Origin: a virus
Length of the DNA stretch: 23,353 nucleotides
Direction: 5' to 3' (one strand)
IMG/VR virus record: IMGVR_UViG_3300040815_000257
Coordinates: 1 to 23,353 of that record
Below the pieces are notes generated by a model that was given only the letters and a program-made list of their open reading frames with translations, was not told where the DNA came from and searched no databases. The translations under genes were made by a program, and so were the position numbers. Positions 2,444-19,065 of the stretch are shown here, in pieces; position 1 is the stretch's first letter, and each line of letters starts with the position of its first letter.

Positions 2444-2956
2444 ATGTTTAGTTCAGCACTCATGTCAATGATCCCCCAAATGGTAGCAAGTGGGCAATTT
2501 AAAAAAGTAGACACTCCGGATTCGTCCCCTGGAGGAGGAATGTCTACTATGGTTCAACCTCAAGTTATGAAGGTAGGTCCTATGCAGGGCGCTGGAATAG
2601 CTGTTGCAACTCCGGGAGGAGCTCCTGCTGTTGTACAAGGGGGTGGTTTTAACAGCGGCGGTTTAATGTCTTTGTTGGCTGATCCTGCTATACGAGAAAG
2701 ACTTAATCTGTCTACTCCCACACCAAACGTTGAACCGGTGGCTCAGGAACCCGTTACAGAAGCCCCCGTTCAAAATACCCTTGCGCAACAATTTTTGAGT
2801 AGCCCGGAGTATGAAACGGCATACGGTAGTTATTTAAACAGACTTTCTAATCCACAACCATTTATTAGCCCGTATCAAGCTTTTGTAGATGCCCGGATGG
2901 AAAGAGAGCGGTCTGGAAACAGATCTTATGTTAATCCTTTTAGGAGACCAGCATGA
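2444..2956 (+). CDS. Gly/Pro-rich hypothetical protein
   Basis: This 170-residue protein is not recognised. The N-terminal 85 residues are low in complexity and rich in Met, Gly, Pro and Val (MVQPQVMKVGPMQGAGI, then GGAPAVVQGGGFNSGG). They are followed by a Pro/Glu/Val linker (residues about 88-110) and a compact C-terminal segment with aromatic residues (FLSSPEYETAYGSYLNRL at about 118-135, then PFISPYQAFVDARMERERSG). The disordered linker and small C-terminal domain suggest a minor virion or assembly factor rather than an enzyme. The stop overlaps the next start by ATGA at 2953, implying translational coupling. An AGAGGAAA Shine-Dalgarno lies just upstream of the start. It could be a virion accessory protein or a lysis regulator; neither is shown. 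Confidence 0.7.
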   Translation: MFSSALMSMIPQMVASGQFKKVDTPDSSPGGGMSTMVQPQVMKVGPMQGAGIAVATPGGAPAVVQGGGFNSGGLMSLLADPAIRERLNLSTPTPNVEPVAQEPVTEAPVQNTLAQQFLSSPEYETAYGSYLNRLSNPQPFISPYQAFVDARMERERSGNRSYVNPFRRPA

Positions 2957-3150
2957 AATCAAAAGTAAAATACATGGGCTCGGCCCCAAAAAATTCACCT
3001 AAAGCCGTAGAGTATGCAGACATTAAAGATCAAGGTCGTGTGCCTTATGGAAAAACTGCGGAGCCTCCGATGGCCGGGGACACTGTAAAGCGTATGACTA
3101 TGCGTGGAGCGGGAGCCGCGATCAAAGGTACAAAATTTAACGGTTGTTAG
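2953..3150 (+). CDS. Small basic protein with C-terminal RGAGAAxxGxxF motif
   Basis: A 65-residue basic protein starts within the stop codon of the gene before it (ATGA). The first 45 residues are Lys/Pro-rich with no predicted helix pattern. The C-terminus, residues 46-65, reads KRMTMRGAGAAIKGTKFNGC and ends on a cysteine. The RG-x-GAA-x-x-G-x-x-F pattern recurs in tiny ORFs next to portal genes of marine phages (recollection of the family pattern, not a search). Related RG-x-GA strings occur in the 107-residue protein at 9611 and the 56-residue protein at 10505 of this window. The function is unknown. The small size and positive charge allow nucleic-acid or capsid binding, but nothing in the sequence proves it. 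Confidence 0.7.
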   Translation: MKSKVKYMGSAPKNSPKAVEYADIKDQGRVPYGKTAEPPMAGDTVKRMTMRGAGAAIKGTKFNGC

Positions 3151-3167
3151 CTTTTAAGGAGATGCTT

Positions 3168-3332
3168 ATGTCTTTCAACATGTTAGAAAAAGTCGTACAA
3201 AAATTTTTAGACCTTTTAATTTGGTCGGTAGAAGTTGTTCAAGAATTAATTATTTGGTGTTATTCCAAGGTCAAACAATTTGTTATTTGGATTCTTTCTA
3301 AGTTCGGAATTAATATTTGTAAATGTGACTGA
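3168..3332 (+). CDS. Small hydrophobic/amphipathic membrane protein
   Basis: The protein has 54 residues when read from the ATG at 3168. That start is chosen because AAGGAG at 3156-3161 sits six bases upstream; a TTG at 3144 or ATG at 3162 in the same frame would extend it but has worse spacing. It alternates hydrophobic runs with single charged residues (FLDLLIWSVEVVQELIIW, then KQFVIWILSKFGINI) and ends in CKCD. This is compatible with two short membrane-associated helices or one long amphipathic helix. The position directly before a GTA-type holin suggests a holin partner, pinholin or antiholin, but there is no family match. Two C-terminal cysteines (residues 51 and 53) could form a disulfide or bind metal. 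Confidence 0.6.
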   Translation: MSFNMLEKVVQKFLDLLIWSVEVVQELIIWCYSKVKQFVIWILSKFGINICKCD

Positions 3333-3344
3333 TATGGGGGGTAA

Positions 3345-3746
3345 ATGGCCTTACTTAATGCACTCATTGGCCCGGTAACAGGGCTTTTAGACAAGTTTGT
3401 TGAAGATAAAGATCAGAAAGCAGCGTTAGCACATGAGATTTCAACGATGGCGGACAGGCATGCACAAGAACTTGCCCTTGCACAAGTTGAAGTCAATAAA
3501 GCGGAAGCAGCTAGTGGATCTGTCTGGAAAGGCGGCTGGAGACCTTTTGTGGGTTGGGTGTGCGGCACTGCCTTTGCTTATCATTTTGTCATTCAGCCTT
3601 TGGCTATTTTTGTCGTTGCTGCCTATGGTATGGAGATACCTGCGCTACCTGAGTTTGACATGGGGCAGTTAATGACCGTGTTGATGGGTATGTTAGGACT
3701 AGGTGGACTTCGTAGTTTTGAAAAATATAAACATGTGGCTAAGTAA
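3345..3746 (+). CDS. Holin of the 3-TM GTA-release type
   Basis: This 133-residue protein matches the layout of the three-helix holin family described from gene transfer agents (GTA_holin_3TM). It starts with a short amphipathic segment (ALIGPVTGLLDKF), then a charged helix rich in Ala/Gln/Glu (residues about 25-55). The signature WKGGWRPFVGWVCGTAFAYHF (tryptophans at 61, 65 and 70) leads into the first membrane segment. Further hydrophobic segments (about 80-95 and 106-121, LMTVLMGMLGLGGLRS) precede a Lys-rich end. The protein would assemble in the inner membrane and form holes that let endolysin reach peptidoglycan. Its stop overlaps the next start (TAATG at 3744-3748). The endolysin is one gene away, making this a compact lysis pair. 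Confidence 0.88.
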   Translation: MALLNALIGPVTGLLDKFVEDKDQKAALAHEISTMADRHAQELALAQVEVNKAEAASGSVWKGGWRPFVGWVCGTAFAYHFVIQPLAIFVVAAYGMEIPALPEFDMGQLMTVLMGMLGLGGLRSFEKYKHVAK

Positions 3747-3883
3747 TGGCAAAACTTAAATTAGATATTGCTCCTTTAAACCGAATTAAAAAGAAAACAT
3801 CTATAGGCAGTTCCATTAATTCAAGGCCTCGAAGTAAACAGGCTAAGATTAGTTTTAAAAAATACAGGGGTCAAGGGCGATGA
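3746..3883 (+). CDS. Tiny Lys/Arg-rich peptide between holin and endolysin
   Basis: A 45-residue ORF is coupled on both sides: its ATG overlaps the holin stop (TAATG) and its TGA overlaps the endolysin start (ATGA at 3880). About one third of the residues are Lys or Arg, and there is no hydrophobic membrane stretch. The C-terminus reads KISFKKYRGQGR. The double overlap argues that it is a real translated gene, or at least a translational bridge keeping ribosomes on the message between holin and endolysin. A cationic peptide here could also act on membranes or nucleic acid. No family is recognised. Confidence 0.55.
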   Translation: MAKLKLDIAPLNRIKKKTSIGSSINSRPRSKQAKISFKKYRGQGR

Positions 3884-4329
3884 CTTTTAAACTGTCTAGC
3901 AGAAGTCTTCGTCGTTTAGAGGGTGTAGACACAGAACTGGTTAGCGTTGTAAAAAGAGCCATAGACCTAACCGCCATTGATTTTGGCGTTTCAGAAGGTC
4001 TTAGAACTTTAAGCCGACAAAAAGAATTAGTTGAAAAAGGGGCTAGTCAAACGCTTAAAAGCAAACATCTCGAAGGAAACGCGGTTGATTTAGTAGCGTA
4101 TATAGGTCCTAGAGTTAGCTGGGAATTAAAAGTATACGATGATGTTGCGGATGCTATGCGGCAAGCTGCTAAAGAGCTTCAGGTCACACTTCGATGGGGA
4201 GCAGCGTGGCATAAGAACTTAACTGATTCGGAAGGTTCGGCAGAATCTTTAATGAATGAATACATTGATTTAAGAAGATCACAGGGTAGACGACCCTTTA
4301 TAGATGCCCCTCATTTTGAACTTGCATAA
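3880..4329 (+). CDS. Endolysin, M15-family peptidase (L-Ala-D-Glu / D-Ala-D-Ala type)
   Basis: This 149-residue protein is a small zinc peptidase of the VanY/M15 fold, which cleaves peptide cross-bridges or stems in peptidoglycan. The expected metal-ligand pattern is visible: SKHLEGNAVDL gives His63 and Asp70 (SxHxxGxAxD), and the C-terminal DAPHFEL gives His145 with Asp142/Glu147 nearby. An upstream SEGLRTLSRQKELVEKG (residues 38-54) matches the substrate-binding segment of phage M15 enzymes, including Arg42 and Gln47. There is no signal peptide or SAR segment, so export depends on the holin upstream. The length is normal for a single-domain phage endopeptidase. It is translationally coupled to the 45-residue peptide. 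Exact bond specificity cannot be set from sequence. Confidence 0.9.
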   Translation: MTFKLSSRSLRRLEGVDTELVSVVKRAIDLTAIDFGVSEGLRTLSRQKELVEKGASQTLKSKHLEGNAVDLVAYIGPRVSWELKVYDDVADAMRQAAKELQVTLRWGAAWHKNLTDSEGSAESLMNEYIDLRRSQGRRPFIDAPHFELA

Positions 4330-4386
4330 AAACTAGCTTTTCTTGTATAGGATATGATAAGATAATCTACGATTTTATTAGACTAT

Positions 4387-4596
4387 ATGCGAGGAGAGAT
4401 GGATGAGATATATGTAGCGGAAGCTGTTTTTAGGATTATTCGTGATAGACGGGCCGCAATCATAGATTTACTGCAATATGGGAACGTCAAATCAATGGAA
4501 CAATATCGTGAACTTATGGGAAACATAGATTCCTTAAATCACGTTGAACAGGAACTCAAGGGCCTGCTAGAAAAACAGGAGCAATCTGATGACTAA
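4387..4596 (+). CDS. Small helical hypothetical protein
   Basis: The protein has 69 residues from the ATG at 4387, or 65 from the ATG at 4399. GAGGAG at 4391-4396 lies inside the longer version and only two bases before the second ATG, so the start is uncertain. The sequence is almost wholly helical (VAEAVFRIIRDRRAAIIDLL, then QYRELMGNIDSLNHVEQELK) with heptad hydrophobics near the C-terminus, suggesting a coiled-coil dimer. The 3' end overlaps the GroES-like gene by 8 bases, so the two are probably co-expressed. A 57-base gap separates it from the endolysin. Function unknown; a head-assembly helper is only suggested by position. Confidence 0.65.
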   Translation: MRGEMDEIYVAEAVFRIIRDRRAAIIDLLQYGNVKSMEQYRELMGNIDSLNHVEQELKGLLEKQEQSDD

Positions 4597-5014
4597 AAAA
4601 GTAAAAGAAGAAAAACCTAACTTGGCTGAAGCGTATGTAGATAAGCCCAGCCTAAACCCTGAATTAATAAGCGCTTCTTTATTGGAGAGATTACCTCAAC
4701 CTACTGGTTGGCGGGTATTAATTCTTCCTTACAAGGGCAAAGCTAAAACGGACAGCGGTATTTTCCTGCCGGATGAAGTTCAAGACAAAAAACAAGTATC
4801 TACTCAAGTAGGGTACGTTTTGAAACTAGGTCCTTTAGCTTACAAAGATACAGAAAAGTTTCCGTCTGGGCCTTGGTGCCAAGAGAAACAGTGGGTGATG
4901 TTTGCTCGTTACGCTGGGTCTCGATTTCAAATAGACGGAGGAGAAGTCAGAATTCTTAATGATGATGAGATTCTAGCTTCTATTCTAGATCCTGAAGACA
5001 TTCATCACTTATAA
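4589..5014 (+). CDS. GroES-like co-chaperonin (Cpn10)
   Basis: This 141-residue protein looks like a phage co-chaperonin of the Cpn10/gp31 type, which caps the host GroEL chamber and helps fold the coat protein. After a 35-residue leader, the Cpn10 core begins at GWRVLILPYKGKAK (residues 40-53). The segment TDSGIFLPDEVQDKKQ (about 54-69) corresponds to the GroES mobile loop; its GIFL matches the GIVL-type hydrophobic tripeptide that contacts GroEL. VGYVLKLGPLAY (74-85) and FQIDGGEVRILNDDEILASI (113-132) are the later beta-barrel strands and C-terminus. AGGAG at 4577-4581 sits seven bases before the start. The gene is placed directly before scaffold and capsid genes, fitting a role in coat folding. 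Host GroES is about 97 residues, so this has N-terminal and roof extensions. Confidence 0.87.
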   Translation: MTKKVKEEKPNLAEAYVDKPSLNPELISASLLERLPQPTGWRVLILPYKGKAKTDSGIFLPDEVQDKKQVSTQVGYVLKLGPLAYKDTEKFPSGPWCQEKQWVMFARYAGSRFQIDGGEVRILNDDEILASILDPEDIHHL

Positions 5015-5024
5015 GGAATAAATA

Positions 5025-5891
5025 ATGGCCGAAACAGAAGCTAATTACGAAGTAGAACCCGATACTGAAGTAGAGGTCTTAGAAGGAGAAGACACCTCTA
5101 AAGAGGTAGACCTTCGGGCGGACAATGAAGATTCGGGGGAGGATCAGTTTAAAAAAGCTGAATCCGCCACTCAGAAGCGCATAGATCGATTAACTAAAAA
5201 GATGCGAGAAGCTGAACGAAGAGAGCAAGAAGCAATTAACTATGCTCGTCAGGTTCAGACCGAATCTTCCCAGATTAAAGAGCGGATGAGTAACTTAGAC
5301 AATAACTATGTGTCTGAGTTTAGTACCCGTGTGGGCGCTCAAATGGATCAAGCAGAAGCGGATCTTTCCCGGGCTATGGAGCTAGGTGACACTAAATCGG
5401 CGGTAGAAGCACAGCGAAAAATAACAACGCTGGCTATTCAAGCAGATAGAGCCGAGCAAGCTAAGGCACAACAAGCTCAATACGCGGAACAAGCTAAGGT
5501 TCAACAGGCTTCGCAAGCCTTTACACAAGCCCCTCGTGCTAAAAGGCCGGACCCTAAAGCAGAGGATTGGGCCCTTAAAAATAAATGGTTTGGGGATGAT
5601 CAAGCTATGACGTATGCTGTTTTTGGCATACATAAGAAATTGATAGAAGATGAAAAGTTTGACCCGCAAAGTGATGAGTACTATACTGAACTTGATCGAC
5701 GGATGATGGAGGAATTTCCTCATAAGTTGAAAGGCTCGAACAAACGTCCCGCTCAGACGGTTGCTTCTGCCTCAAGAACCGCAACAACTGGGCGCAGTGG
5801 GAGAAAGGTTCGTCTCACCCCGAGCCAAGTCGCAATAGCGAAAAAATTGGGTGTGCCACTTGAAGAATACGCGAAATACGTGAAGGAGTAA
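5025..5891 (+). CDS. Capsid scaffolding protein
   Basis: This 288-residue protein has the composition of a procapsid scaffold, which guides coat assembly and leaves before or during packaging. Residues 1-45 are very acidic (EVEPDTEVEVLEGEDTSKEV). Residues about 48-165 form a long charged, Ala/Gln-rich coiled coil (RIDRLTKKMREAERREQEAI onward). A folded or flexible middle follows, with RPDPKAEDWALKNKWFG near residue 173. The C-terminus is basic and ends in a short helix-turn-helix (RLTPSQVAIAKKLGVPLEEY, then AKYVKE), the region that binds coat in P22 and similar scaffolds. It lies between GroES and capsid genes, as expected. No protease motif is visible, so scaffold removal by a phage protease is not indicated here. 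Confidence 0.82.
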   Translation: MAETEANYEVEPDTEVEVLEGEDTSKEVDLRADNEDSGEDQFKKAESATQKRIDRLTKKMREAERREQEAINYARQVQTESSQIKERMSNLDNNYVSEFSTRVGAQMDQAEADLSRAMELGDTKSAVEAQRKITTLAIQADRAEQAKAQQAQYAEQAKVQQASQAFTQAPRAKRPDPKAEDWALKNKWFGDDQAMTYAVFGIHKKLIEDEKFDPQSDEYYTELDRRMMEEFPHKLKGSNKRPAQTVASASRTATTGRSGRKVRLTPSQVAIAKKLGVPLEEYAKYVKE

Positions 5892-7061: not shown

Positions 7062-7967
7062 ATGGCTATTTCTCGCGCACAACTGGCGAAAGAGCTAGAA
7101 CCCGGCCTTAATGCCTTGTTCGGGCTCGAATACAACCGTTACGAAAATGAGCATGCTGAAATCTTTGAAGAAGAGTCTTCTGACAGAGCTTTCGAAGAAG
7201 AAGTAATGCTTGCCGGTTTCTCTACAGCACCTGTTAAAAACGAAGGCAATGCCATTAGTTTTGACGATGCACAGGAAACATTCACGGCTCGTTACACACA
7301 CGACACAATCGCGCTTGCTTTCTCGATTACAGAAGAGGCTGTCGAAGACAACCTTTACGATCGACTTGCTTCGCGTTACACAAAGGCTCTTGCACGTTCA
7401 ATGGCCCAGACAAAGCAAATCAAGGCGGCTTCTATCTTGAACAATGCGTTCAATACGGCCAACCCTGTAGGTGATGGTGCAGCACTTTGCTCCGCCGCTC
7501 ACCCAAGCCTTTCTGGGAACCAGCGTAACTTGTTGTCAGTAGCAGCAGACCTCAACGAAACTTCGCTTGAGCAGATGCTTATTGACATTGCAGGGCTTAC
7601 CGATGAACGTGGTCTAAAGATTGCGGTTCGTGGTACAAAGTTAATTATCCCTAAAGAACTGCAATTCATTGCAGAACGGGTTATTAACTCCAACCTACGT
7701 CCCGGATCAGCGGACAACGATCTTAATGCGACAAAGAGCATGGGAATGCTTCCTGAAGGAGCGGTAGTAAACCACTTCCTAACGGACACCGATGCTTTCT
7801 TCATTAAGACGGATGCACCTAACGGCTTCAAATACTTCAACCGTTCGCCTATTAAAACGGCAATGGAAGGGGACTTTGATACCGGTAACATGCGATTCAA
7901 AGCACGAGAGCGTTACAGCTTTGGTGTTTCTGATTGGCGTTGTGTATTCGGTACACCGGGTGCATAA
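7062..7967 (+). CDS. Major capsid protein, Mu gpT-like HK97 fold
   Basis: The 301-residue coat protein forms the icosahedral head. The sequence follows the Mu gpT-like family: an N-terminal helix (RAQLAKELEPGLNALFGLEY) and an E-loop/spine region around residues 45-110. The conserved FTARYTHDTIALAFSITEEA (73-92) and YTKALARSMAQTKQIKAASI (about 104-123) follow. The P and A domains contain CSAAHPSLSG, then LNETSLEQMLIDIAGLTDE and LIIPKELQFIAERV. The end is strongly conserved (NHFLTDTDAFFIKTDAPNG, then FKARERYSFGVSDWRCVFG). No N-terminal delta domain is needed because a separate scaffold is encoded upstream. Expression should be high: it has the best Shine-Dalgarno in the window and is followed by an intrinsic terminator. 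Confidence 0.92.
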   Translation: MAISRAQLAKELEPGLNALFGLEYNRYENEHAEIFEEESSDRAFEEEVMLAGFSTAPVKNEGNAISFDDAQETFTARYTHDTIALAFSITEEAVEDNLYDRLASRYTKALARSMAQTKQIKAASILNNAFNTANPVGDGAALCSAAHPSLSGNQRNLLSVAADLNETSLEQMLIDIAGLTDERGLKIAVRGTKLIIPKELQFIAERVINSNLRPGSADNDLNATKSMGMLPEGAVVNHFLTDTDAFFIKTDAPNGFKYFNRSPIKTAMEGDFDTGNMRFKARERYSFGVSDWRCVFGTPGA

Positions 7968-8118: not shown

Positions 8119-8601
8119 ATGGCTAATACAACGTTTAGTGGACCGGTTCGGTCCGAAAATGGTTTTTCTACCATTGTTAAAAGCAGCACTACCGGTGCTG
8201 TAACTAACTCAATGACTTTTTCAGAATACACCGCAACAATTACGGTGGCTAATGGTGCGACCACGGGTAAAGAAGCGGCTATTGGGATACCGTCTAATTT
8301 CATTCCTATGGGTGTGGTAATTGCCGTTACTACAGCTTCGGGAAATGCCGTAAATCTTGTTGACATAGGTACCGACGCAGACACGGATGGTTTTGTTGAT
8401 GGCATTACAGTTGCCTTAAATAGTACCGGATTTAAAGGATTTTTTCCTTGTAACGGTGTTTTAGGTATGTCCGGAGGTTCTACTACAGTCGCTACCGCTA
8501 CTGCCGATGAAGTTGAGCTAGTGGTCTCTGGTGATCCCGGTAGTGATACGGTTATTGTTTGCAAATTCATAGGAATTGCCGGGTCTTCTGACGATTCATA
8601 A
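8119..8601 (+). CDS. Small beta-rich probable virion protein
   Basis: The protein has 160 residues from the ATG at 8119, chosen because AGGAG at 8108-8112 lies six bases upstream; an in-frame TTG at 8098 would add seven residues without a ribosome site. The N-terminus MANTTFSGPVRSENGFSTIV is a recurring opening in marine phage structural modules. The body is Gly/Thr/Val/Ala-rich (GVVIAVTTASGNAVNLVDIG, then DTDGFVDGITVALNSTGFKG) with several predicted beta strands and the end VIVCKFIGIAGSSDDS. It is the first gene after the capsid terminator. A decoration or head-surface role is the simplest guess. No enzyme motif is seen. Confidence 0.72.
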   Translation: MANTTFSGPVRSENGFSTIVKSSTTGAVTNSMTFSEYTATITVANGATTGKEAAIGIPSNFIPMGVVIAVTTASGNAVNLVDIGTDADTDGFVDGITVALNSTGFKGFFPCNGVLGMSGGSTTVATATADEVELVVSGDPGSDTVIVCKFIGIAGSSDDS

Positions 8602-8613
8602 TAGGAGCCTTAA

Positions 8614-8886
8614 ATGTCTGATTCTGATGTAAATTCAAAACGTGTTACGTCTACAGGTTCTCTTGCTGTAGGTCCTGCGCGTATTCGACAGATTCAGTTA
8701 AAAACCGCCGCAGGTACTCCCCGCCTTACCCTTACTGACGGGTCTGGCGGAGCTACGGTTCTTGATTTGGATTTTAATGCGTCAACCACACATTCGGTTA
8801 ATATTCCATCTAACGGGATTAGAGTTAACGATATATTTATATCGGTGGCTACTAACTTGACGGCTATAACTGTTTTTTATAATTAA
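8614..8886 (+). CDS. Small beta-sandwich-like protein
   Basis: The protein has 90 residues, preceded by AGGAG (8603-8607) six bases from the ATG. The pattern RVTSTGSLAVGPARIRQIQL, then SGGATVLDLDF and IPSNGIRVNDIFISVATNLT with the end ITVFYN, is a run of short beta strands. It is familiar from small proteins of marine phage structural regions, where the function is not known to me. The sequence has no cysteine and few charges, unlike the basic proteins that follow. A trimeric or pentameric capsid-surface or connector protein is possible. Confidence 0.7.
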   Translation: MSDSDVNSKRVTSTGSLAVGPARIRQIQLKTAAGTPRLTLTDGSGGATVLDLDFNASTTHSVNIPSNGIRVNDIFISVATNLTAITVFYN

Positions 8887-8889
8887 GAT

Positions 8890-9174
8890 ATGGCGACAAC
8901 CAAAGACGTAACTCGAACTCCAAGCGGAAAAATTAAATACCGGGGGGAAACTTTTCCCGGATTTAATAAACCTAAAAGGACTCCGGGCGCAAACAAAAAG
9001 TCGGCGGTTCTTGCTAAAAAAGGAAGTGAAATAAAATTAGTAAGGTTTGGTGATCCAAATATGTCTATTAAAAAAGATCAACCCGATCGTCGTAAAAGTT
9101 TTAGAGCTAGACATAAATGTGACACGTCGAAAGATAAATTTAGCGCCAGATATTGGTCGTGCAAAGCTTGGTAA
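8890..9174 (+). CDS. Basic conserved protein with C-terminal His/Cys motif
   Basis: The protein has 94 residues, is strongly basic, and opens the Lys-rich island. The N-terminal half (KIKYRGETFPGFNKPKRTPG) and middle (KLVRFGDPNMSIKKDQPDRR) lead into RARHKCDTSKDKFSARYWSC, with His75, Cys77 and Cys91 as possible metal or thiol positions, and it ends CKAW. The same C-terminal string is familiar from small proteins in marine phages and possibly algal viruses, but I know no assigned function. No clear Shine-Dalgarno precedes the ATG, which is four bases after the upstream stop, so reinitiation is likely. Nucleic-acid binding is a guess based on charge and the RH-C...C motif. Confidence 0.75.
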   Translation: MATTKDVTRTPSGKIKYRGETFPGFNKPKRTPGANKKSAVLAKKGSEIKLVRFGDPNMSIKKDQPDRRKSFRARHKCDTSKDKFSARYWSCKAW

Positions 9175-9178
9175 AAAT

Positions 9179-9370
9179 ATGGCTCATTTAACTCCAGAAG
9201 AAGTTTTAAGCAAACTGGCTCACCACGAGATGAAGTGTGATCTTCGGTACAAAAACATTGAAGAAAGACTAGATTCTCAAAAGGAAGACTTAAAAGGTCT
9301 TAGCAACAAATTGTGGTTTTTAGTCGTTTTAATTATTGTAACTCCAATGGTACACCGTTTGTGGGGTTAG
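9179..9370 (+). CDS. Small tail-anchored coiled-coil membrane protein (XhlA-like layout)
   Basis: The protein has 63 residues from the ATG at 9179, four bases after the upstream stop; a longer reading from 9047 would overlap the 94-residue gene and is not favoured. Residues 1-42 are a charged helix (EEVLSKLAHHEMKCDLRYKN, then IEERLDSQKEDLKGL) and residues 44-58 are hydrophobic (KLWFLVVLIIVTPMV), ending HRLWG. This helix-then-anchor layout matches XhlA-type proteins that assist holins at the membrane. It is about 5 kb from the main lysis genes, so it may do something else, such as membrane attachment of the island's products. Confidence 0.68.
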   Translation: MAHLTPEEVLSKLAHHEMKCDLRYKNIEERLDSQKEDLKGLSNKLWFLVVLIIVTPMVHRLWG

Positions 9371-9371
9371 T

Positions 9372-9611
9372 ATGGGCTCTAGAGTAAAAACAGGTCCTAA
9401 GCCTTCTCCTTGCGAAGTCACGTACTATAGAAAAGGTGGTGCGGTATCTAGCAAGTCAAAAGGAAGTAAAATTTGTCCCGAAGGTAAAGCTTGGGCAAAA
9501 AGAACTTTTGATACTTATCCTAGCGCTTACGCTAATTTAGCTGCTTCAAAGTACTGTAAAGACCCTAATTACGCTAAGAAGTCTAAAGGCGGAAAGAGAA
9601 AAGGCAAGTAA
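9372..9611 (+). CDS. Lys-rich conserved small protein with three cysteines
   Basis: The protein has 79 residues. A basic N-terminus with GSRVKTGPKPSPCEVTYYRK and a GGAV string leads to the conserved core ICPEGKAWAKRTFDTYPSAY, then ANLAASKYCKDPNYAKK (about residues 34-70). The C-terminus is a run of Lys/Gly (SKGGKRKGK). Cys14, Cys35 and Cys63 are the only cysteines. The core pattern is familiar from virus genomes, including large algal viruses as I recall, always without a function. It starts two bases after the membrane protein and its stop overlaps the next start (TAATG at 9609), so it is co-translated with the neighbours. A DNA-condensing or capsid-internal protein is conceivable. Confidence 0.75.
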   Translation: MGSRVKTGPKPSPCEVTYYRKGGAVSSKSKGSKICPEGKAWAKRTFDTYPSAYANLAASKYCKDPNYAKKSKGGKRKGK

Positions 9612-9934
9612 TGGGTAAGTTGCAAGATTGGGTAGATGAGGAATGGGTCCGCATAGATAGCTCAGGTAACATTGCGGGAGCTTGTGGTACGTCAAAAAAC
9701 AAGAAAAACCCAGATCGCTGTTTGCCTAAAGCTAAAGCAAAAAGTTTAAGTAAAGAACAAAGAGCTTCTACCGCAAGAAAAAAGAAAAAAGAAGGTGCTA
9801 AAGGAAAACAAGTTGTAGCTAATACTTCGTCCGCTAAAGTAACAAAGATGGAAAACGGAGGAGCGGTTATTGCTAGAGGTTGTGGAGCGGTTTTAAATGA
9901 ACGAAGAAAATTAACCAGCGGCGCGGTTAGTTAG
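9611..9934 (+). CDS. Lys-rich conserved protein with C-terminal RGxGA motif
   Basis: The protein has 107 residues. The N-terminal part LQDWVDEEWVRIDSSGNIAG, then CGTSKNKKNPDRCLPKAKAK (Cys25, Cys37) and SLSKEQRASTARKKKKEGAK, forms one recurring domain. A linker (VVANTSSAKVTK) is followed by ENGGAVIARGCGAVLNERRK (residues 81-100), which carries the RG-x-GA motif shared with two other small proteins in this window. It is coupled to the upstream gene by TAATG. The arrangement of a basic Cys domain plus a short RG tail suggests a structural or nucleic-acid-binding role. No catalytic residues are evident. Confidence 0.75.
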   Translation: MGKLQDWVDEEWVRIDSSGNIAGACGTSKNKKNPDRCLPKAKAKSLSKEQRASTARKKKKEGAKGKQVVANTSSAKVTKMENGGAVIARGCGAVLNERRKLTSGAVS

Positions 9935-9936
9935 TT

Positions 9937-10521
9937 ATGCGCTTGGAGTTTATAGGAGATCCTTTAGAAAAAGCAGTAGCGAAAGAAATAATTGCTTGGT
10001 CTAAAGATGTTTTAGAAAAACCTAGCAAATTTTTTAACGGTTTACCCCCTTGTCCTTATGCAAAACAAGCGTGGATGAAAGACAAAGTTGCTTTAGTTTT
10101 TAAAAAAGAAAAAACGTACCAAGACCTGTATTCGGTTATTTCTTGTTTTGACGATAAATTTGATTTAGCTATATTGGTAGATTTAAATAGCGATAAAACT
10201 TCAGAAGAGTTTCATGATTATTTAAATGAACTAAATGGGGCTATTGCTAAAGGTTTTTTTATTGATAAAGACATATGGGTAGTAGGGTTTCATCCAGATG
10301 ATGAAGCGGCAGAGTTTGCAGAAGAGGTAGATTTTGAAGCTTTAGTGGAGGTGGAGTACTCTTTAATTTTTATTCAGAGGCTGTCTAAGTTGCAAGAGTC
10401 TGCATACAAAATTAAGAAAAAAGGGTATTATGCTAACTATAATGAGGAGTACAATTCTTCTTATATCTTTAAACGTAGAGAAGAACTTTACAGGAGATTA
10501 AAAAATGGCGATGGCACCTAA
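9937..10521 (+). CDS. Conserved protein with CPYA and FHPDD motifs (DUF1415-like pattern)
   Basis: This 194-residue protein is unlike its neighbours: acidic, aromatic and apparently a folded alpha/beta domain. Ordered features are an N-terminal helix with AKEIIAWSKDVLEKP, GLPPCPYAKQAW (C39-P40-Y41-A42), FDLAILVDLN (75-84), FHDYLNELNG (92-101), IWVVGFHPDDEA (113-124), and VEYSLIFIQRLSKLQ (138-152) followed by KKGYY. The order of a CPxA cysteine motif, a DYL helix, a FHPD string and a basic segment resembles the DUF1415 family of bacterial proteins of unknown function, but only distantly and by eye. AGGAG near its 3' end serves the next gene. An enzymatic or redox role is possible; none is shown. 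Confidence 0.72.
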   Translation: MRLEFIGDPLEKAVAKEIIAWSKDVLEKPSKFFNGLPPCPYAKQAWMKDKVALVFKKEKTYQDLYSVISCFDDKFDLAILVDLNSDKTSEEFHDYLNELNGAIAKGFFIDKDIWVVGFHPDDEAAEFAEEVDFEALVEVEYSLIFIQRLSKLQESAYKIKKKGYYANYNEEYNSSYIFKRREELYRRLKNGDGT

Positions 10522-10675
10522 AAAGATGCGCGGCGGCGGTATGGTTAAAAAGATGCGCGGCGGCGGTATGGTTAAAAAAATGAAAAAAGGGGGCGAGGCT
10601 ACCAACAGCATGAGCGTTGCGGAGCTTCGTGAAAAAGCTAAAGCAAAAGGGTATAAATTAGTTAAGGCCACCTAA
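10505..10675 (+). CDS. Small basic protein with tandem MRGGG repeats and SAP-like tail
   Basis: A 56-residue ORF begins inside the end of the CPYA gene (17-base overlap). It is supported by AGGAG at 10492-10496 eight bases before the ATG at 10505; ATG at 10511 is an alternative start. Residues 6-23 are two exact copies of KKMRGGGMV and a third, degenerate copy begins KKMKKGGE. The C-terminal half, MSVAELREKAKAKGYKLVKA, resembles the short helix-turn-helix of SAP or Rho-N-like motifs that bind nucleic acid. Similar RGGG plus AELR peptides occur in marine phages as I recall. A DNA- or RNA-binding accessory is the likeliest role, at low certainty. Confidence 0.68.
   Translation: MAMAPKKMRGGGMVKKMRGGGMVKKMKKGGEATNSMSVAELREKAKAKGYKLVKAT
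10520..10573 (+). repeat. Two perfect 27-bp tandem repeats in coding sequence
   Basis: Unit 1 is 10520-10546 and unit 2 is 10547-10573. They are identical at every base and in frame, each encoding KKMRGGGMV. A third copy starts at 10574 but diverges after six to nine bases. Zero synonymous change between the two units indicates a recent duplication or ongoing slippage. Confidence 0.95.
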
Positions 10676-10677: not shown

Positions 10678-11349
10678 ATGGCTACTTCCGGAAGCAAAGA
10701 TTTTGAGTTAGATGTAGCCGATTACATCGAAGAGGCGTTTGAGCGTTGTGGCTTAGAGGTCAGGACGGGTTACGACTTAAAGACCGCTAAACGGTCGCTT
10801 AATCTTATGCTTGCTGATTGGGCTAACCGTGGGCTAAACCAGTGGACTATTAAACAGCGATCATTGACGCTTGTTACTAATGACGGAGAATACGATTTAT
10901 CCGCCGACGTAATAGACGTGTTATCGGTTGTTATTAGGGTGTCAGGAACAGACTATTCTTTAGAGCGATTAAGCCGAGACGAATATTTGACAATACCTAC
11001 CAAGACTACATCGGGTCGCCCTAATCAGTTTTTCTTAGACAGGCAGCTTACCCCTAACCTAAAAGTGTGGCCCGTTCCGGACAGTTCGACCTCGTATACC
11101 GTTTATTATGATGCTTTGACACGGATGGATGATGCGGACACTTTTACTAACACGATGGATTTGCCCTTTAGGTTTTACCCTTGTTTAGCGGCAGGTCTAG
11201 CGTATTACCTGTCTTTAAAGAAAAACCCTAAGATGACTCCGATGCTAAAAACAATATATGAAGAAGAGTTTCAAAGGGCCGCTGAGGAGGATCGAGATAG
11301 AGCTTCCTTTAATGTTGTTCCTAAAATGAGTTACTACCGGTCCGGATAA
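10678..11349 (+). CDS. Head-tail adaptor, P22 gp4-like tail accessory factor
   Basis: This 223-residue protein fits the P22 gp4-type adaptor that binds under the portal after packaging and starts tail assembly. The N-terminal helical part (VADYIEEAFERCGLEVRTGY, then LKTAKRSLNLMLADWANRGL) is the conserved helix bundle. A beta segment follows (QRSLTLVTNDGEYDLSADVI), then GRPNQFFLDRQLTPNLKVWP at about residues 116-135 and a C-terminal helix (LAAGLAYYLSLKKNP). It ends with a basic, Tyr-rich tail (PKMSYYRSG). P22 gp4 is about 166 residues, so this is longer. It is the first gene after the small-protein island and is followed by two further neck genes with coupled starts. Confidence 0.72.
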   Translation: MATSGSKDFELDVADYIEEAFERCGLEVRTGYDLKTAKRSLNLMLADWANRGLNQWTIKQRSLTLVTNDGEYDLSADVIDVLSVVIRVSGTDYSLERLSRDEYLTIPTKTTSGRPNQFFLDRQLTPNLKVWPVPDSSTSYTVYYDALTRMDDADTFTNTMDLPFRFYPCLAAGLAYYLSLKKNPKMTPMLKTIYEEEFQRAAEEDRDRASFNVVPKMSYYRSG

Positions 11350-11654
11350 TGGCTAAATTTGCTTCAGGTAAAGATTCTTACGCCATTTGCGATAGGTCGG
11401 GGTTACGTTATCCCTATAAAGTAATGCGCACAGAGTGGAATGGTTTGCGGGTCGGGCCGGATCAATATGAGCCAAAACACCCTCAGTTAGGTCCTTTTAG
11501 AAAGGTGGTTGATCCTCAAGCTTTGCAAAACGCTAGACCTGACCGAACGGAACCTATGGATGTTTATGTTGGCCTTCCAACTGTCGAAAATGAAAATTTA
11601 AGACCAGCTACCGGTTTTGGTCAAGTTGGTTTAGTTACGGTGACAACATCATGA
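11349..11654 (+). CDS. Small conserved neck-module protein
   Basis: The protein has 101 residues, with its ATG overlapping the gp4-like stop (TAATG). The conserved region is YAICDRSGLRYPYKVMRTEW, then NGLRVGPDQYEPKHPQLGPF (about residues 10-52), followed by DPQALQNARPDRTEP. This string is common beside neck genes of proteobacterial and marine phages, but its function is not known to me. The C-terminus ends GQVGLVTVTTS, the same VTVTT ending as the gene at 21728, with 18 of 20 bases around the stop and next start identical. ATGA at 11651 couples it to the next adaptor gene. It is probably a minor neck or tail protein. Confidence 0.75.
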   Translation: MAKFASGKDSYAICDRSGLRYPYKVMRTEWNGLRVGPDQYEPKHPQLGPFRKVVDPQALQNARPDRTEPMDVYVGLPTVENENLRPATGFGQVGLVTVTTS

Positions 11655-12301
11655 GTTTTACTTACTCTCAGTTAAAACAAGCAATACAGGATTACACAGA
11701 AAACGATGAGACTTCGTTTGTAAATAATCTTTCTATTTTTATTCAACAAGCGGAAGAACGAATATTAAAGAACGTTCAGTTAAGCTTGTTTCGAAAAAAT
11801 GTTTCTGGAGGATTTACGGCTTCCAACAAATACTTGACTGCGCCTAGTGATTTTTTAGCCCCGTTTTCATTATCTTTTGTAAATGCAAGTAATGATCATG
11901 TATTTTTAGAATTTAAAGATGCCGATTTTATTCAAAGTTTTAATCCTAACGGTGCTACGGAGGGCAATCCAAGATATTACGCTGTTTTTGATTTAGACCA
12001 TTTTATAATTGGACCGACACCTAATGCAGCAAGCGCAGTTGAATTACATTATTTTTATCGTCCAGCTAGTTTGACAGCGGGTGCCGATAGCGGAACTACG
12101 TGGCTAAGTGAAAATGCTCAAATAGCCATGCTTTATGGAAGCTTGTTAGAAGCGTATACTTACATGAAAGGCGAGCAAGATTTAGTAGCTTTGTATGAAA
12201 AACGTTTTGGTGAAGCTTTAGTTGGAATGAAAATGTTGGGTGAAGCTAAAGAAGTTACCGATGAATATAGGGTGGGTAAAGTTATTAGGGCTAAACAATG
12301 A
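11651..12301 (+). CDS. Probable second head-tail adaptor (SU10 adaptor-like)
   Basis: This 216-residue protein shows an N-terminal helix pair (TYSQLKQAIQDYTENDETSF, then FIQQAEERILKNVQLSLFRK) followed by a beta region (KYLTAPSDFLAPFSLSFVNA, then HVFLEFKDADFIQSF). Next come RYYAVFDLDHFIIGPTPNAA and YFYRPASLTAG, and a C-terminal helical part with MLYGSLLEAYTYMKGEQDLV. The order matches connector proteins of the SU10 or lambda gp6/HK97 adaptor type that sit below the portal. The assignment is by pattern. It starts in ATGA overlap with the previous gene, and the next start overlaps its stop, so the neck genes are made together. It could be the ring contacting the gp10-like hub. Confidence 0.65.
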   Translation: MSFTYSQLKQAIQDYTENDETSFVNNLSIFIQQAEERILKNVQLSLFRKNVSGGFTASNKYLTAPSDFLAPFSLSFVNASNDHVFLEFKDADFIQSFNPNGATEGNPRYYAVFDLDHFIIGPTPNAASAVELHYFYRPASLTAGADSGTTWLSENAQIAMLYGSLLEAYTYMKGEQDLVALYEKRFGEALVGMKMLGEAKEVTDEYRVGKVIRAKQ

Positions 12302-13531: not shown

Positions 13532-14722
13532 ATGCCCAGTACATATACTACTAATAACGGTATTGAACTTATAGCCACCGGGGAACAATCGGGAACCTGG
13601 GGTGATACTACAAATACCAATTTAAGTCTTTTAGACACGTCTTTAGATGGACAAATATCCATTACGCTAGGTGCCACCGGATCTTCCGGATCGCCTAATC
13701 TTTTACCTATTAATAACGGAGCTACCTCTAATGGTAGAAACCGTTTGGTTATTTTTGCGGATGGAGGAGATTTAGGCGGCACCGCTTTTGTTCAACTTAC
13801 TCCTAACGATTCTGAAAAAATTATTTACATAAGAAATAATTTATCTGGAAGCAGAAGCATTTTAGTTTTTCAAGGAACGTATAATGCGTCAAACGATTAC
13901 GAGGTCCCTGCCGGAACCACTGCGGTGGTTTATTTCAATGGCGGCGGCTCTGGTGCTGTTGCCGGTAATGTGTTTAACAATGCTTATTTTGATAGCCTTC
14001 GTCTCGGTTCTGTCTCAGTTACAGCGGTTCTTGATGAAGATAACATGTCTTCCAATAGCGCTACTGCATTGGCTACGCAACAATCGATCAAAGCGTATGT
14101 AGATACCCAAGTTACGGGAGAAGACTTAGATTTTGCAGGAGGTAGCGGAACAGGCGCAGTAGATTTAGATAGCCAGACCTTTACTGTTGCTGGAACCGCT
14201 AATGAAATAGAAACTTCTGCGAGTGGGCAAACTTTAACGGTAGGTTTACCTAATGCAGTAACTATTGCGACCTTAACGCTAACAAATGATTTAGCTGTAT
14301 CCAGTGGCGGAACAGGATCATCTAATGCTTCTGACGCTAGGACAGCATTAGGGTTAGCCATTGGTTCTGACGTAGAGGCATTTGACGCGGATATCCTGAA
14401 AGCTGACACAGCAGATACGCTAACAGCGCCATTCCGAGGGACGATAACAACAGACAATGATTTATCATTTGATCAAAACGTCACCAACAACTTCCAATGC
14501 ACACCTTCGGGCGCAGGGACATTAACCTTTACAAATCACACCGCAGGGCAGAGTGGGTTTATACTTTTGATTAACTCTGGCGGTCACGCTATTTCTGCTG
14601 CTGGCACAACTAAAATTAACGCCACAGACCTAACAGCAATATCTGTTGCAGGCACTTACACGTTAAGTTATTTTGATAACGGCACTAATGCCTATGTGTC
14701 AGTGAGTAGGAGTTTTGGATGA
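13532..14722 (+). CDS. Tail fibre protein
   Basis: The protein has 396 residues. The N-terminus STYTTNNGIELIATGEQSGT, then WGDTTNTNLSLLDTSLDG, is a common attachment domain of phage fibres. A beta domain follows to about residue 160 (RNRLVIFADGGDLGGTAFVQ, then YIRNNLSGSRSILVFQGTYN). Around residues 164-192 the strongly conserved string VTAVLDEDNMSSNSATALAT, then QQSIKAYVD, marks the shaft joint of marine phage fibres. SGGTGSSNASDARTALGLAI (260-279) is a typical collar/shaft repeat. The C-terminal domain (from about residue 300) has different wording and base use and looks exchanged. The stop overlaps the giant fibre start by ATGA at 14719. It is probably a trimer attached to the tail hub. Confidence 0.85.
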   Translation: MPSTYTTNNGIELIATGEQSGTWGDTTNTNLSLLDTSLDGQISITLGATGSSGSPNLLPINNGATSNGRNRLVIFADGGDLGGTAFVQLTPNDSEKIIYIRNNLSGSRSILVFQGTYNASNDYEVPAGTTAVVYFNGGGSGAVAGNVFNNAYFDSLRLGSVSVTAVLDEDNMSSNSATALATQQSIKAYVDTQVTGEDLDFAGGSGTGAVDLDSQTFTVAGTANEIETSASGQTLTVGLPNAVTIATLTLTNDLAVSSGGTGSSNASDARTALGLAIGSDVEAFDADILKADTADTLTAPFRGTITTDNDLSFDQNVTNNFQCTPSGAGTLTFTNHTAGQSGFILLINSGGHAISAAGTTKINATDLTAISVAGTYTLSYFDNGTNAYVSVSRSFG

Positions 14723-17700
14723 GTTTGCTGCCTGTTGGCTTTGGTTCTGCTGCTGATGATGACTATGAAATTACAGATAGTCTTAGACTGCGTAGTTCTG
14801 CCACTGCTTATTTAAGTAGGACTCCAGCAAGTGCTGGTAACCAAAAAACACATACTTTTAGTGCTTGGTTTAAACGAGGTGATTTATCATCGTCCCAGTT
14901 TCTTTTCACAGCTATTCAATCAAATGCTGCTAATTACTGGCAATTGTGGATCCATTCAACAAACCAAATTTATTTATCTACTCTTCCGTTAGTGTCTGGA
15001 GGAACCTGTTTTATTACAACAGGATTGTTCAGGGATCCTTCCGCTTGGTATCACATCGTTTTACAGTTTGATACAACAAATGCAACTGCTGCCGACAGAG
15101 TAAAACTTTATATAAACGGTGAAAGAGTTACAGCATTTGCTACAAATAACATTTCATCTATTTCTTTGAACGCTGATGGTTATTTAAACAGTGCTGTTGA
15201 ACATAACATTGGAAATAGGCAACCATACACAAATAATCCTTATGACGGATATATAACAGAAGTAAACTTCATTGACGGTCAAGCATTAGCTCCAACAGAC
15301 TTCGGTAAGTTCGATGCCAACGGTACTTGGAAAGCTAAACGGTACACAGGCACATACGGTACTAATGGTTTCTATCTACCGATGAAGCCAACAACACAGG
15401 CTGAGTTACAAAACACAGTGCTGTACACAGGCACGGGAGCTTCACAAAGTATTGATGGCTGTGGTTACGCGCCTGATTTTGTTTGGCTTAAGAGTCGTAA
15501 TGCTGCTTACAGTAATGCTTTATTTGATTCCATTAGAGGAACAAGTAAATGGCTAACCAGTAATGGTACTAATGCAGAAGCTACTGTTAGCGGAGTTGCT
15601 TCTTTTGACTCTGATGGTTTTACATTAGGAGCAGATACAGGGCAAAATAACTCAGGGACAACCTACGTAGCGTGGACATGGGACGCTGGAGATAACCAAC
15701 CCAGCACAGGTCACAGTAGTTTGCTTTACACAGGATCGGGGGCAGCACAATCAATTAAGGGCTTTGGATTTAGTCCTGATTTAATTATATTTAGAAATCG
15801 TGCAGCAGCTTCTCCTTTGCTTATAGATTCAGTAAGAGGTGCGCATCAAGAATTACAACCAAACTCTACTGGTGCTGAAACTTCAAACAGCGGTACTCGA
15901 ATTGCAAGCATTGATGCAGATGGTTTTAGTCTTGCGAACACAGCAGTAGGTGGATTAAATGCTAGTGGAAATGAATATGTCGCATGGGGCTGGGATGCTG
16001 GTGACGGTGATCCAGTAAGTAACACTGATGGTTCTATAACCTCAACAGTAAAAGCAAATGACGCTACTGGAGTTAGTATTGTTAGTTGGGAAGGATCATC
16101 AGCTACTGCAACGGTTGGACACGGGTTATCAACCGCTCCAAAAGTAATAATTGCAAAAAACAGAGATGCTTCTACAGAGTGGCCTGTTTATCACGATAGT
16201 GTTAATAGTGGTGGAGGTTCTTATCTTAGGCTTAACGGTACTTATGCCAATACTTCTAGCAGTATTATTTGGACAGGTAGTCCTACAAGTAGCGTCATAA
16301 ATGTAGGTAGCTATTCGTATGTAAACTCTAATAGCATGATTGCCTACTGTTTCTCAGAAGTCTCAGGCGTATCTAAGTTTAGTACTTACACAGGTACAGG
16401 ATCATCAGGTAAGGCAATAACTGGTTTAGGTTTTAGACCAGGATTTTTGATGATTAAAGAAACTTCTAGCACAGGGAACTGGGCTATTGTCGATGGAACT
16501 AGGTCGCCATTTGGTGAAGTTACTGGTGACTACCTATATGTAAATTTATCCCAAGCTGAAGGTGGGGGTTCTGCTCCATTACAATTTGACTCAGACGGTT
16601 TTACTATTAACAGTGGAGACTCAGATACAAACTCTTCAGGTCAAACCTACGTCTACATGGCGTTTAAAGGTAGTTACTCAGACCACGTTAGCCCACTGAA
16701 TGATGATGGCTCAATAGACAGTCGAGTCAAAGCAAATACAAGTAAGGGTTTTAGTATTGTAAGTTATGAAGGTACTCCAAATGGAACGGTTGGTCACGGT
16801 TTATCTACTGCTCCAAAAGTAATTATCCACAAAGATAGAGACTATTCTGTTAACTGGCGAGTGTTTCATTATCTTATGTCTGGATCAGAAGATTACAACC
16901 CAACAGACAATTTACATTTAAATACAACTAATGCGTATCCTCCTGGAGTAGGCGCAGCATCACGAATTAATGGAGTTACTAGTAGTACATTTACAAGCAC
17001 CGGAGGCTTTACAGGGTCAGAGCAAATAGCCTACTGTTTCTCAGAAGTAGCAGGTTACAGTAAGTTTGCTAGTTACACAGGAAATGGATCTACAACTGGG
17101 CCAACCATTACTACAGGATTCCGTCCAGGCTTTGTTATGGTTAAAAGCAGCACAAATTCAAGTACTGATTGGTTAATACTAGACGGCACAAGAAGTCCTA
17201 ATAATACAAGGAACAAAGTTTTATTTGCTAACTTAGGTAATGCAGAGGCTGGTACAGGTTACGGAGACATGGATGTTTCTGACACAGGGTTCCAGATAAA
17301 AACAAACGGAGCTTCTTCAAACGCAAGCGGTCAAACCTACATTTACATGGCGTTTGCTGAAACTGCTGATGCTGTATTTAACTTTGATGCGTCTGGTAAC
17401 AAGAACAACTTTGATGCTAACAACATCAACAGTAACGCTGAGTCTGAATCTACTTATGATTTAATGAAGGATACACCAAGTCTGGTCGATGAGAACGCTG
17501 GTAACTTTGCTACGTTGAATCCATTAGATATATATCCAGGTAGGCAATTTGCAGTTGACGGTAATTTAAAGTGGAACGACACTTCTGGTGGGTCATGGGG
17601 TCGATCAAATATATCTGTCACAAGTGGAAAATGGTATTGGGAAGTTTCAGGTTTTAGTACAACCAACTGGTTTATCGGTGTTAGTGATGGGACTAAATCC

Positions 17701-19065
17701 ATAACTAATTACTACGCCTATTATGTGGGTGCACCGACTGCTTTAGTTTATTTAATTAATGGAAATACTTACATTGCTGGATCAAACGCATCTTTTGTTA
17801 GTGCATTTGCAACAACTGATGTTGTAGGTTTTGGTTTAGATGCCGATGCAGGTTCTTTAGCTGTTTATAAAAATAATGTATTGCAGGGAACAATTACTGG
17901 ATTAAGTTACGGTAGTTATTCTCCAATGGTCGCACCACCTGCTGCGGGTAATTGTGTGTACAACTTCGGACAACGCCCACTTGCTTACACACCACCAACA
18001 GGATTTTTAAAGATCAACACATTTAACCTGCCTGACTCAACTATTGAGGATGGATCAGATTACTTTAATACTGTGTTGTATACAGGGGATAATGCGTCAG
18101 GCAGAAACATACCTACAGGATTTCCAGGTGGTTGGACTTGGATAAAAAATAGGAATGCAGCTAACTCACATACATTGTCAGATATTGTACGAGGCGATGG
18201 AAAAACATTATTTACTAATGCAACAAATGCTGAAGTAGATTACGGGTCAAACGGAATAGATTTTGTATCTGACGGTTTTGATGTAACACACAATGCTACT
18301 AATAATTTATTTAATGTATCTGGAAGAACTTACGTATCTTGGAACTGGAAAGCCAACGGCTCTGGTGTCAGTAACACAGCTGGAGACGTAAACTCCACAG
18401 TCTCTGTAAACACTACGGCTGGATTTAGTATTGCTACAGCTACAACTGTTTCTTCTTATGGCTCTTTTCCTTTTACAATTGGACACGGTTTAGGAACTGC
18501 ACCAGCAATGGTCATTTATAAGTCAAGAACCAGTTCTGGACAAAACTGGTGGGTTTGGCACAAAGATTTACCTAACGCAGCAACAGGAAGAGGGATACTT
18601 TTAAATTCAACTGGCGCTGAAGTAAACGGTGGCTACTTTGCTTCTAACCCAGCTACAGCTACAACAATGGGTATAAATTCTGCTGCTCTTATTAATGACA
18701 ACGTTGTAATGTACAGCTTTGCAGAAGTAGAAGGCTACTCATCATTCGGTAGCTACACAGGCAACGGCAATGCTGAGGGCCCCTTTGTCTACACAGGATT
18801 TAAACCTGCTTTTGTTGTCACCAAACGTAACGGATCTTCTGGTTGGCCTATGCATGACGATAAAAGAAGTCCTTACAATGTTACAGAAGCAAGTTTGTAT
18901 GCAAATGCTGCCGATGCCGAAGTCAACCCATCAACAGAAGACATAGATTTTCTATCCAACGGCTTTAAAATGCGAGGAACAACAACTGCTAGGAACAGCA
19001 GCGGTTCAACTTACATCTACATAGCATTTGCCGAGAACCCATTTAAGAATTCTAACGCGAGGTAA
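14719..19065 (+). CDS. Giant modular receptor-binding protein (LamG, repeats, SPRY)
   Basis: This 1448-residue protein is the largest in the window. Residues about 20-215 form a LamG/concanavalin-type domain (KTHTFSAWFKRGDL, WYHIVLQFDTTN, VKLYINGERV, YDGYITEVNFIDGQALAPTD). Six A-type units begin with YTGxGxxxxI near residues 235, 335, 557, 785, 1119 and 1345, with DSIRG or DGTRSP, then DSDGF and TYVxWxW/TYxYMAF. Three B-type units contain VGHGLSTAPKVIIxKxRD near 465, 689 and 1254. A SPRY-like domain lies at about 915-1090 (GKWYWEVSGFSTTNWFIGVS, then YKNNVLQGTI and PMVAPPAAGNCVYNFGQRP). Such lectin and SPRY folds bind sugars or proteins, fitting adsorption to the host. Base use differs from flanking genes. 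It starts inside the previous stop, so it depends on fibre translation. Confidence 0.85.
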   Translation: MSLLPVGFGSAADDDYEITDSLRLRSSATAYLSRTPASAGNQKTHTFSAWFKRGDLSSSQFLFTAIQSNAANYWQLWIHSTNQIYLSTLPLVSGGTCFITTGLFRDPSAWYHIVLQFDTTNATAADRVKLYINGERVTAFATNNISSISLNADGYLNSAVEHNIGNRQPYTNNPYDGYITEVNFIDGQALAPTDFGKFDANGTWKAKRYTGTYGTNGFYLPMKPTTQAELQNTVLYTGTGASQSIDGCGYAPDFVWLKSRNAAYSNALFDSIRGTSKWLTSNGTNAEATVSGVASFDSDGFTLGADTGQNNSGTTYVAWTWDAGDNQPSTGHSSLLYTGSGAAQSIKGFGFSPDLIIFRNRAAASPLLIDSVRGAHQELQPNSTGAETSNSGTRIASIDADGFSLANTAVGGLNASGNEYVAWGWDAGDGDPVSNTDGSITSTVKANDATGVSIVSWEGSSATATVGHGLSTAPKVIIAKNRDASTEWPVYHDSVNSGGGSYLRLNGTYANTSSSIIWTGSPTSSVINVGSYSYVNSNSMIAYCFSEVSGVSKFSTYTGTGSSGKAITGLGFRPGFLMIKETSSTGNWAIVDGTRSPFGEVTGDYLYVNLSQAEGGGSAPLQFDSDGFTINSGDSDTNSSGQTYVYMAFKGSYSDHVSPLNDDGSIDSRVKANTSKGFSIVSYEGTPNGTVGHGLSTAPKVIIHKDRDYSVNWRVFHYLMSGSEDYNPTDNLHLNTTNAYPPGVGAASRINGVTSSTFTSTGGFTGSEQIAYCFSEVAGYSKFASYTGNGSTTGPTITTGFRPGFVMVKSSTNSSTDWLILDGTRSPNNTRNKVLFANLGNAEAGTGYGDMDVSDTGFQIKTNGASSNASGQTYIYMAFAETADAVFNFDASGNKNNFDANNINSNAESESTYDLMKDTPSLVDENAGNFATLNPLDIYPGRQFAVDGNLKWNDTSGGSWGRSNISVTSGKWYWEVSGFSTTNWFIGVSDGTKSITNYYAYYVGAPTALVYLINGNTYIAGSNASFVSAFATTDVVGFGLDADAGSLAVYKNNVLQGTITGLSYGSYSPMVAPPAAGNCVYNFGQRPLAYTPPTGFLKINTFNLPDSTIEDGSDYFNTVLYTGDNASGRNIPTGFPGGWTWIKNRNAANSHTLSDIVRGDGKTLFTNATNAEVDYGSNGIDFVSDGFDVTHNATNNLFNVSGRTYVSWNWKANGSGVSNTAGDVNSTVSVNTTAGFSIATATTVSSYGSFPFTIGHGLGTAPAMVIYKSRTSSGQNWWVWHKDLPNAATGRGILLNSTGAEVNGGYFASNPATATTMGINSAALINDNVVMYSFAEVEGYSSFGSYTGNGNAEGPFVYTGFKPAFVVTKRNGSSGWPMHDDKRSPYNVTEASLYANAADAEVNPSTEDIDFLSNGFKMRGTTTARNSSGSTYIYIAFAENPFKNSNAR
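16342..17048 (+). repeat. DNA-level repeats inside the giant fibre gene
   Basis: GCCTACTGTTTCTCAGAAGT occurs identically at 16342-16361 and 17029-17048, 687 bases apart. About 675 bases also separate two copies of ACGGTTGG...CACGG...TTATC...GCTCCAAAAGTAAT (first at 16111, second at 16786). The protein units that contain them diverge elsewhere. This gives near-identical patches that could recombine and change unit number. Confidence 0.85.

Follow-up and report, generated by a model that had tools for sequence, protein, structure and literature searches.

The internal proteins of phage T4 and the Dar proteins of phage P1 (not to be confused with gene P1 below) are coupled to the head and packaged with the DNA, and some of them are small and basic. 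Neutralization of the phage genome is generally credited to ions and polyamines rather than to proteins. Dense phage DNA is said to offer basic proteins little space, and evidence of a sizeable neutralizing contribution by such proteins is stated to be lacking (PMC3281028). In the algal giant virus Chrysochromulina parva virus BQ1, DUF5872 and DUF5754 are gene-list entries in the genome (PMC12085832); both families, together with DUF6321, have until now been known as names alone. Our study examined a stretch of viral DNA of 23,353 nt (IMG/VR record IMGVR_UViG_3300040815_000257; the whole stretch is called the window) with six small genes between the capsid and neck genes, three of which appear to belong to an exchangeable cassette that includes relatives of these families.

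A sequence-only reading had described six tightly packed genes of 94, 63, 79, 107, 194 and 56 residues, and ORFs of all these lengths were recovered between positions 8890 and 10675, on the plus strand like the genes that flank them. P1 (8890–9174) encodes a basic protein of 94 aa (phrog_7595) and fills what we call slot X of the cassette. P2 (9179–9370) encodes a 63-aa coiled coil with a C-terminal hydrophobic segment. P3 (9372–9611; 79 aa, phrog_27331) and P4 (9611–9934; 107 aa, phrog_23735) are both basic and would correspond to the N- and C-terminal halves of DUF5872, with a linker and a tail added in P4. P5 (9937–10521; 194 aa, phrog_28122) is an acidic alpha/beta protein, and P6 (10505–10675; 56 aa) is basic, with M-R-G-G-G-M-V-K-K repeats and a SAP-like C-terminus that scores below threshold. 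The upstream boundary is the major capsid protein gene (7062–7967), followed by a cement-type protein (8119–8601), assigned from its position beside the coat as in Pam1-like phages, and by a small phrog_28102 protein (8614–8886) that is duplicated in some relatives. The downstream boundary is a neck adaptor gene (10678–11349). At the island junctions, adjacent genes either lie 1–4 nt apart or overlap, by 1 or 17 nt; translational coupling of the six genes is therefore likely, and the adjoining neck genes are packed equally tightly. Four proteins are strongly basic, as had been proposed (pI 10.5 for P1, 10.1 for P3, 10.2 for P4 and 10.7 for P6), P2 is near neutral at 6.9, and P5, at 5.0 and with a predicted model of pLDDT 85, agrees with the acidic folded protein that had been anticipated. 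Net charges of P1, P3 and P4 are +18, +16 and +14. The conserved cysteines ascribed to the four basic proteins did not hold up for two of them, as P6 has none and those of P1 are absent from a large branch of its family; given this Cys-less branch, a zinc finger formed by the P1 cysteines is unlikely. Median dN/dS values of 0.13–0.41 across all six families indicate that the genes are real and under purifying selection.

The island had been set against a P22-type assembly plan, and its position between the coat-side genes and the neck adaptor was upheld. The plan itself, however, is that of an SU10/Pam1-like podovirus and not strictly that of P22, because a Pfam profile search matched the coat to Phage_capsid_4, the portal to SU10_portal and the adaptors to SU10_adaptor. 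Named or cultured relatives sharing the window-type coat are DSL-LC04, HTVC023P, HTVC027P, 023Pt_psg01 and CRP-901, and the neck gene of DSL-LC04 carries the annotation Pam1 adaptor. The two SU10_adaptor matches of the window, at 10678–11349 and 11651–12301, are distinct neck-region proteins and may be adaptor-like paralogues. Elsewhere in the window, a protein of 1448 aa (14719–19065) that contains a SPRY domain and four DUF7483 stretches is probably a tail protein, and a GroES-like co-chaperonin (Cpn10; 4589–5014) lies in the head cluster and is conserved beside the scaffold gene in relatives. A holin of the GTA 3TM type (3345–3746) and an M15 peptidase (3880–4329) form a probable lysis pair between the portal and scaffold genes, and a 77-aa protein with a zinc-ribbon-like CxxC...CxxC pattern (22021–22254) lies close to the window end. 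The small protein at 2953–3150 has the C-terminal end MRGAGAAIKGTKFNGC, and its RGxGAAxxG type of tail also occurs in small proteins upstream of the coat in about 20 related contigs. No protease gene was recognized in the searched parts of the window. A related contig with the entire six-gene island, coat and adaptor was binned to an Oceanicoccus MAG, which is a possible hint of the host, the binning being uncertain.

Conservation was assessed in two samples. The first consisted of IMG/VR contigs retrieved by the coat protein alone, from which the 55 loci that also had the adaptor were retained; the second comprised 80 loci picked by P3–P4 rather than by the coat. Within the island of the 55 coat-selected loci, P3 and P4 were each found 48 times and always as a pair, whereas P5 was found in 34, P2 (counted with a profile built from aligned segments) in 33, P6 in 32 and P1 in 28. 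The gene order MCP-P1-P3-P4-adaptor was seen in 27 of the 55 and MCP-DUF6321-P3-P4-adaptor in 21. The arrangement is thus conserved far beyond chance, yet only part of it is constant. An obligatory unit of six genes is ruled out, as P2, P5 and P6 are lacking in many relatives in which the other three are retained; the cassette is P1, P3 and P4, and the remaining genes come and go. The shared job proposed for all six therefore survives for P1 or DUF6321 with P3 and P4, which move jointly and are mutually dependent, and not for P2, P5 and P6, each of which occurs in only 32–34 of the 55 relatives.

In relatives lacking P1, the slot was filled by another basic protein that matches DUF6321 above its cut-off (49–55 bits against 28.5). 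Counted over the entire coat-selected loci, P1 was present in 29, DUF6321 in 23, neither in 3 and both in none. Exactly one of the two accompanied P3–P4 in all 49 loci bearing that pair, and P3–P4 was absent from all 3 loci with neither partner (Fisher P=1.4e-12, a value that overstates independence, as the loci are related). A tree of coat and adaptor required about eight in-place swaps between P1 and DUF6321, and well-supported branches make three of these unavoidable. The tree offered too few pairs for a strict paired test, which gave P=0.25. The second sample contained P1 in 40 loci, DUF6321 in 27, neither in 13 (several of them truncated near the contig start) and both in none. As 71 of these 80 loci had no window-type coat, adaptor, portal or scaffold, and only nine had any, the mutual exclusion holds beyond the phage group of the window. 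The P1 family also occurs widely in the absence of P3–P4.

The pair itself appears to be one protein, DUF5872, split into two genes, as indicated by a joined match in gene order and by phage ORFs in which the halves are fused. In roseophage CRP-2, P3 matched profile positions 1–51 of DUF5872 (E=3.9e-11) and P4 positions 55–98 (E=3.6e-4); fusing the two sequences as they follow in the genome gave a single match (1.2e-18), against two pieces when reversed (5.8e-15). In the window, neither P3 nor P4 alone matched DUF5872, and joined they aligned colinearly over profile positions 11–107 (E=6.6e-4), with a score of 20.7 bits, under the curated 27.5 of PF19197. Both halves were found in one ORF in three other phage contigs, at 44–46 bits, which is above this cut-off. 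The familiarity from algal viruses that had been sensed in these proteins was therefore justified for P3–P4, as DUF5872 is listed in an algal giant virus, and the link of P1 through DUF5754 is weak. P4 proteins carry a recurring tail motif, ARGCG..RRK.T, and the window P4 ends in ARGCGAVLNERRKLT; in 023Pt_psg01 that tail is on P3 (positions 4847–5041 of its locus). As a transferable packaging tag the motif was rejected, because 193 occurrences are on P4 and one is on another protein, this P3.

The P1 family was represented in 175 phage records. Window P1 matched neither DUF6321 (PF19846), where the curated score was not reached, nor DUF5754 (PF19058), although 12 of 49 P1 homologues gave weak matches to the latter (best E 0.012, all under cut-off), which makes a relation to DUF5754 a lead. 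The predicted fold is compact, with beta hairpins and two helices (pLDDT 86); comparison of the model with PDB structures returned a single row with Z 2.5 and identified no known fold, and P1 had no significant PDB sequence match. More informative is the setting of the domain. In ICP1 it is fused C-terminally to an XkdF-type capsid protease, in Aeromonas phage 2L372X, Vibrio phage 1.101.O and roseophage CRP-6 it lies N-terminal to such a protease, and in one further contig it is fused to the C-terminus of a portal. Much of the basic stretch has been lost in ICP1, 2L372X and 1.101.O, so the domain may bind by means other than charge. Where P1 homologues stand alone, the genes around them include members of the scaffold, head morphogenesis, minor head, portal, major head and head protease families, and P3–P4 in unrelated phages are found beside terminases, portals, major head proteins and head–tail adaptors of many families. 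In CRP-2, a P1 that is 83 % identical to that of the window is followed by P3 and P4, and the cassette region examined held no recognized homologue of the window head genes. In one coat-selected relative P3-P4-P1 has shifted as a block to upstream of the coat, and in HTVC027P and 023Pt_psg01 the block has likewise been relocated as a unit. Because the trio is kept beside differing head-gene families, the cassette of P1 (or DUF6321), P3 and P4 appears to move as a unit between the head modules of many unrelated marine phages.

The three optional genes are of a different character. The start of P2 is an ATG within a longer TTG ORF from 9047, and homologues favour this 63-aa start; against the GTA head formation family NF048001, P2 scored below threshold (E=0.0019). 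P5 is a homologue of DUF1415. An hhalign comparison gave a probability of 93.3 % (E 2.7e-7), with 137 columns in register, including the CPFA/CPYA and FHP motifs, and 27 of 58 P5 homologues matched DUF1415 at E<0.05 (best 1.4e-5); P5 itself scored 14.8 bits against PF07209, under the curated 26. No significant PDB match for P5 was returned by sequence or by Foldseek alone. The P5 model aligned best with AglA, over 150 residues (Z 7.8, rmsd 3.6; the next unrelated entry had 4.3), although a Z below 8 can reflect a common arrangement. AglA is a thiolate-ligated haem enzyme with Cys44 as the ligand (PMC12866846). This cysteine sits in PPYPC, and Cys39 of P5, invariant in 58 sequences, belongs to a PPC at the start of helix 2 (40–47) in the model. 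Membership of YqcI/YcgG found no support at the sequence level: PF08892 gave no match and hhalign against one member was not significant (E 0.21). Haem binding by P5 is thus a hypothesis, and the AglA-like fold a separate lead. P5 is thus a phage gene with ties to DUF1415 of bacteria and possibly also to the YqcI/YcgG fold of thiolate-haem enzymes; in one bacterial class, DUF1415 was present in 14 of 56 genomes. In HMO-2011, P1- and P5-related genes lie close together (positions 2524–4513 of the locus) and a basic protein containing GGM directly precedes P5, so that P5 and P6-like genes may pair outside the phage group of the window too.

Taken together, this evidence suggests that P1 (or DUF6321), P3 and P4 form a three-part, horizontally moving head module whose products would be located in the head, probably inside the capsid, and would bind DNA, a reading to which we assign a probability of about 0.5. 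Co-occurrence, mutual exclusion, P3–P4 fusion, head-gene neighbourhoods, P1 fusions and charge are what was observed, and from them we infer a position within the virion, binding to DNA and ejection. The small cationic proteins would be made together with the capsid and enter the procapsid, the P1 domain being the part that other phages carry in one chain with the capsid protease or with a portal. There they would bind the packaged DNA, help to neutralize or organize it, and perhaps exit the head along with it. P3 and P4 would act as a single split protein, and P2, P5 and P6 as optional helpers. Condensation of DNA in the head, one of the jobs suggested by the sequence-only reading for all six genes, fits the head setting, the protease and portal fusions and the charge, for the trio and not for the six; with binding as the conditional step, handling of head DNA is the most likely job of the trio. 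The cassette is not essential to the head, because it is absent from 3 of the 55 phages with this backbone, and position in a head cluster is by itself no proof of location in the virion. Among the matches listed, a literature search returned no virion proteome of any relative and no DNA-binding data for any member.

Three other explanations share part of this evidence. The trio might consist of head-carried effectors, packaged and injected in the manner of the T4 internal or phage P1 Dar proteins and acting in the new host through anti-restriction or nucleoid takeover. Such effectors would suit the head-gene setting, the joining of the P1 domain to protease or portal, and proteins that are small and basic, and the swapping of P1 and DUF6321 could mirror differing host targets. 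We nevertheless consider this unlikely, as arms-race genes often evolve fast and P3–P4 are highly conserved (median dN/dS 0.13–0.18), the presence of the same families in an algal virus argues for a host-independent job, and no tie to known anti-defence families was found in Pfam, PHROGs or NCBIfam. Less probable still is a role in procapsid assembly alone, in which the trio would dock scaffold, portal or protease and be absent from the mature virion; the protease and portal to which P1 is joined are both internal procapsid parts, and scaffolds are among the neighbours of P1 homologues, but one cassette beside unrelated coats, portals and terminases is hard to explain for a specific docking factor, and so strong a positive charge suggests a nucleic acid partner. 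Equally improbable are late non-structural genes, such as DNA- or RNA-binding regulators, parked in the head operon and linked by transcription timing alone, for although P2, P5 and P6 are variable and in CRP-2, CRP-235, HTVC106P and HMO-2011 related genes sit among other small genes upstream of the terminase or near a peptidase gene, this would account neither for the P1 fusions to protease and portal nor for the strict dependence of P3–P4 on P1 or DUF6321.

In summary, the reading of the trio as a head module handling DNA can tentatively be extended, at odds that we consider clearly poorer, to a capsid-internal nucleoprotein module of exchangeable P1/DUF6321 and split DUF5872, common to giant algal viruses and to tailed phages with many unrelated types of head; this would be a previously unrecognized, general form of protein-based organization of packaged viral DNA. 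If the reading is true, the trio represents a mode of phage genome handling about which little is known, and a widespread, exchangeable basic set that is tied to head genes and has kin in giant viruses makes a protein role in phage DNA neutralization directly testable. No description of the cassette rule, the P1/DUF6321 exchange or the DUF5872 split was found in the literature searched for these families, in which two papers name DUF5754 and one names DUF5872. Compared with known systems, the trio has no sequence relation that we could find to the T4 internal or phage P1 Dar proteins, and its packaging would be the shared feature. The virion DNA-binding proteins of PBCV-1 (A278L, A282L, A437L and others) are basic and bound to packaged DNA (PMC3281028), as the trio may be, although they differ from the trio proteins. 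The P5 model appears to share the helix–strand order of AglA and YqcI/YcgG, with Cys39 in a place that may be comparable to that of Cys44 in AglA, but no match at sequence level was found. DUF6321, the occupant of slot X in 23 of 55 loci, shares an RRKSFxAR..W-C end with P1 and otherwise shows very weak similarity, and DUF5754, from the same algal giant virus as DUF5872, has a residue pattern like that of P1, which is no member by the curated test. With DUF5872 (PF19197) of that virus the likeness follows gene order, P3 corresponding to the N-terminal and P4 to the C-terminal half, in two separate genes in the window and in a single chain in three phage proteins. DUF5872, DUF6321 and perhaps DUF5754 are thereby placed in one shared setting, with an initial hypothesis about their function.
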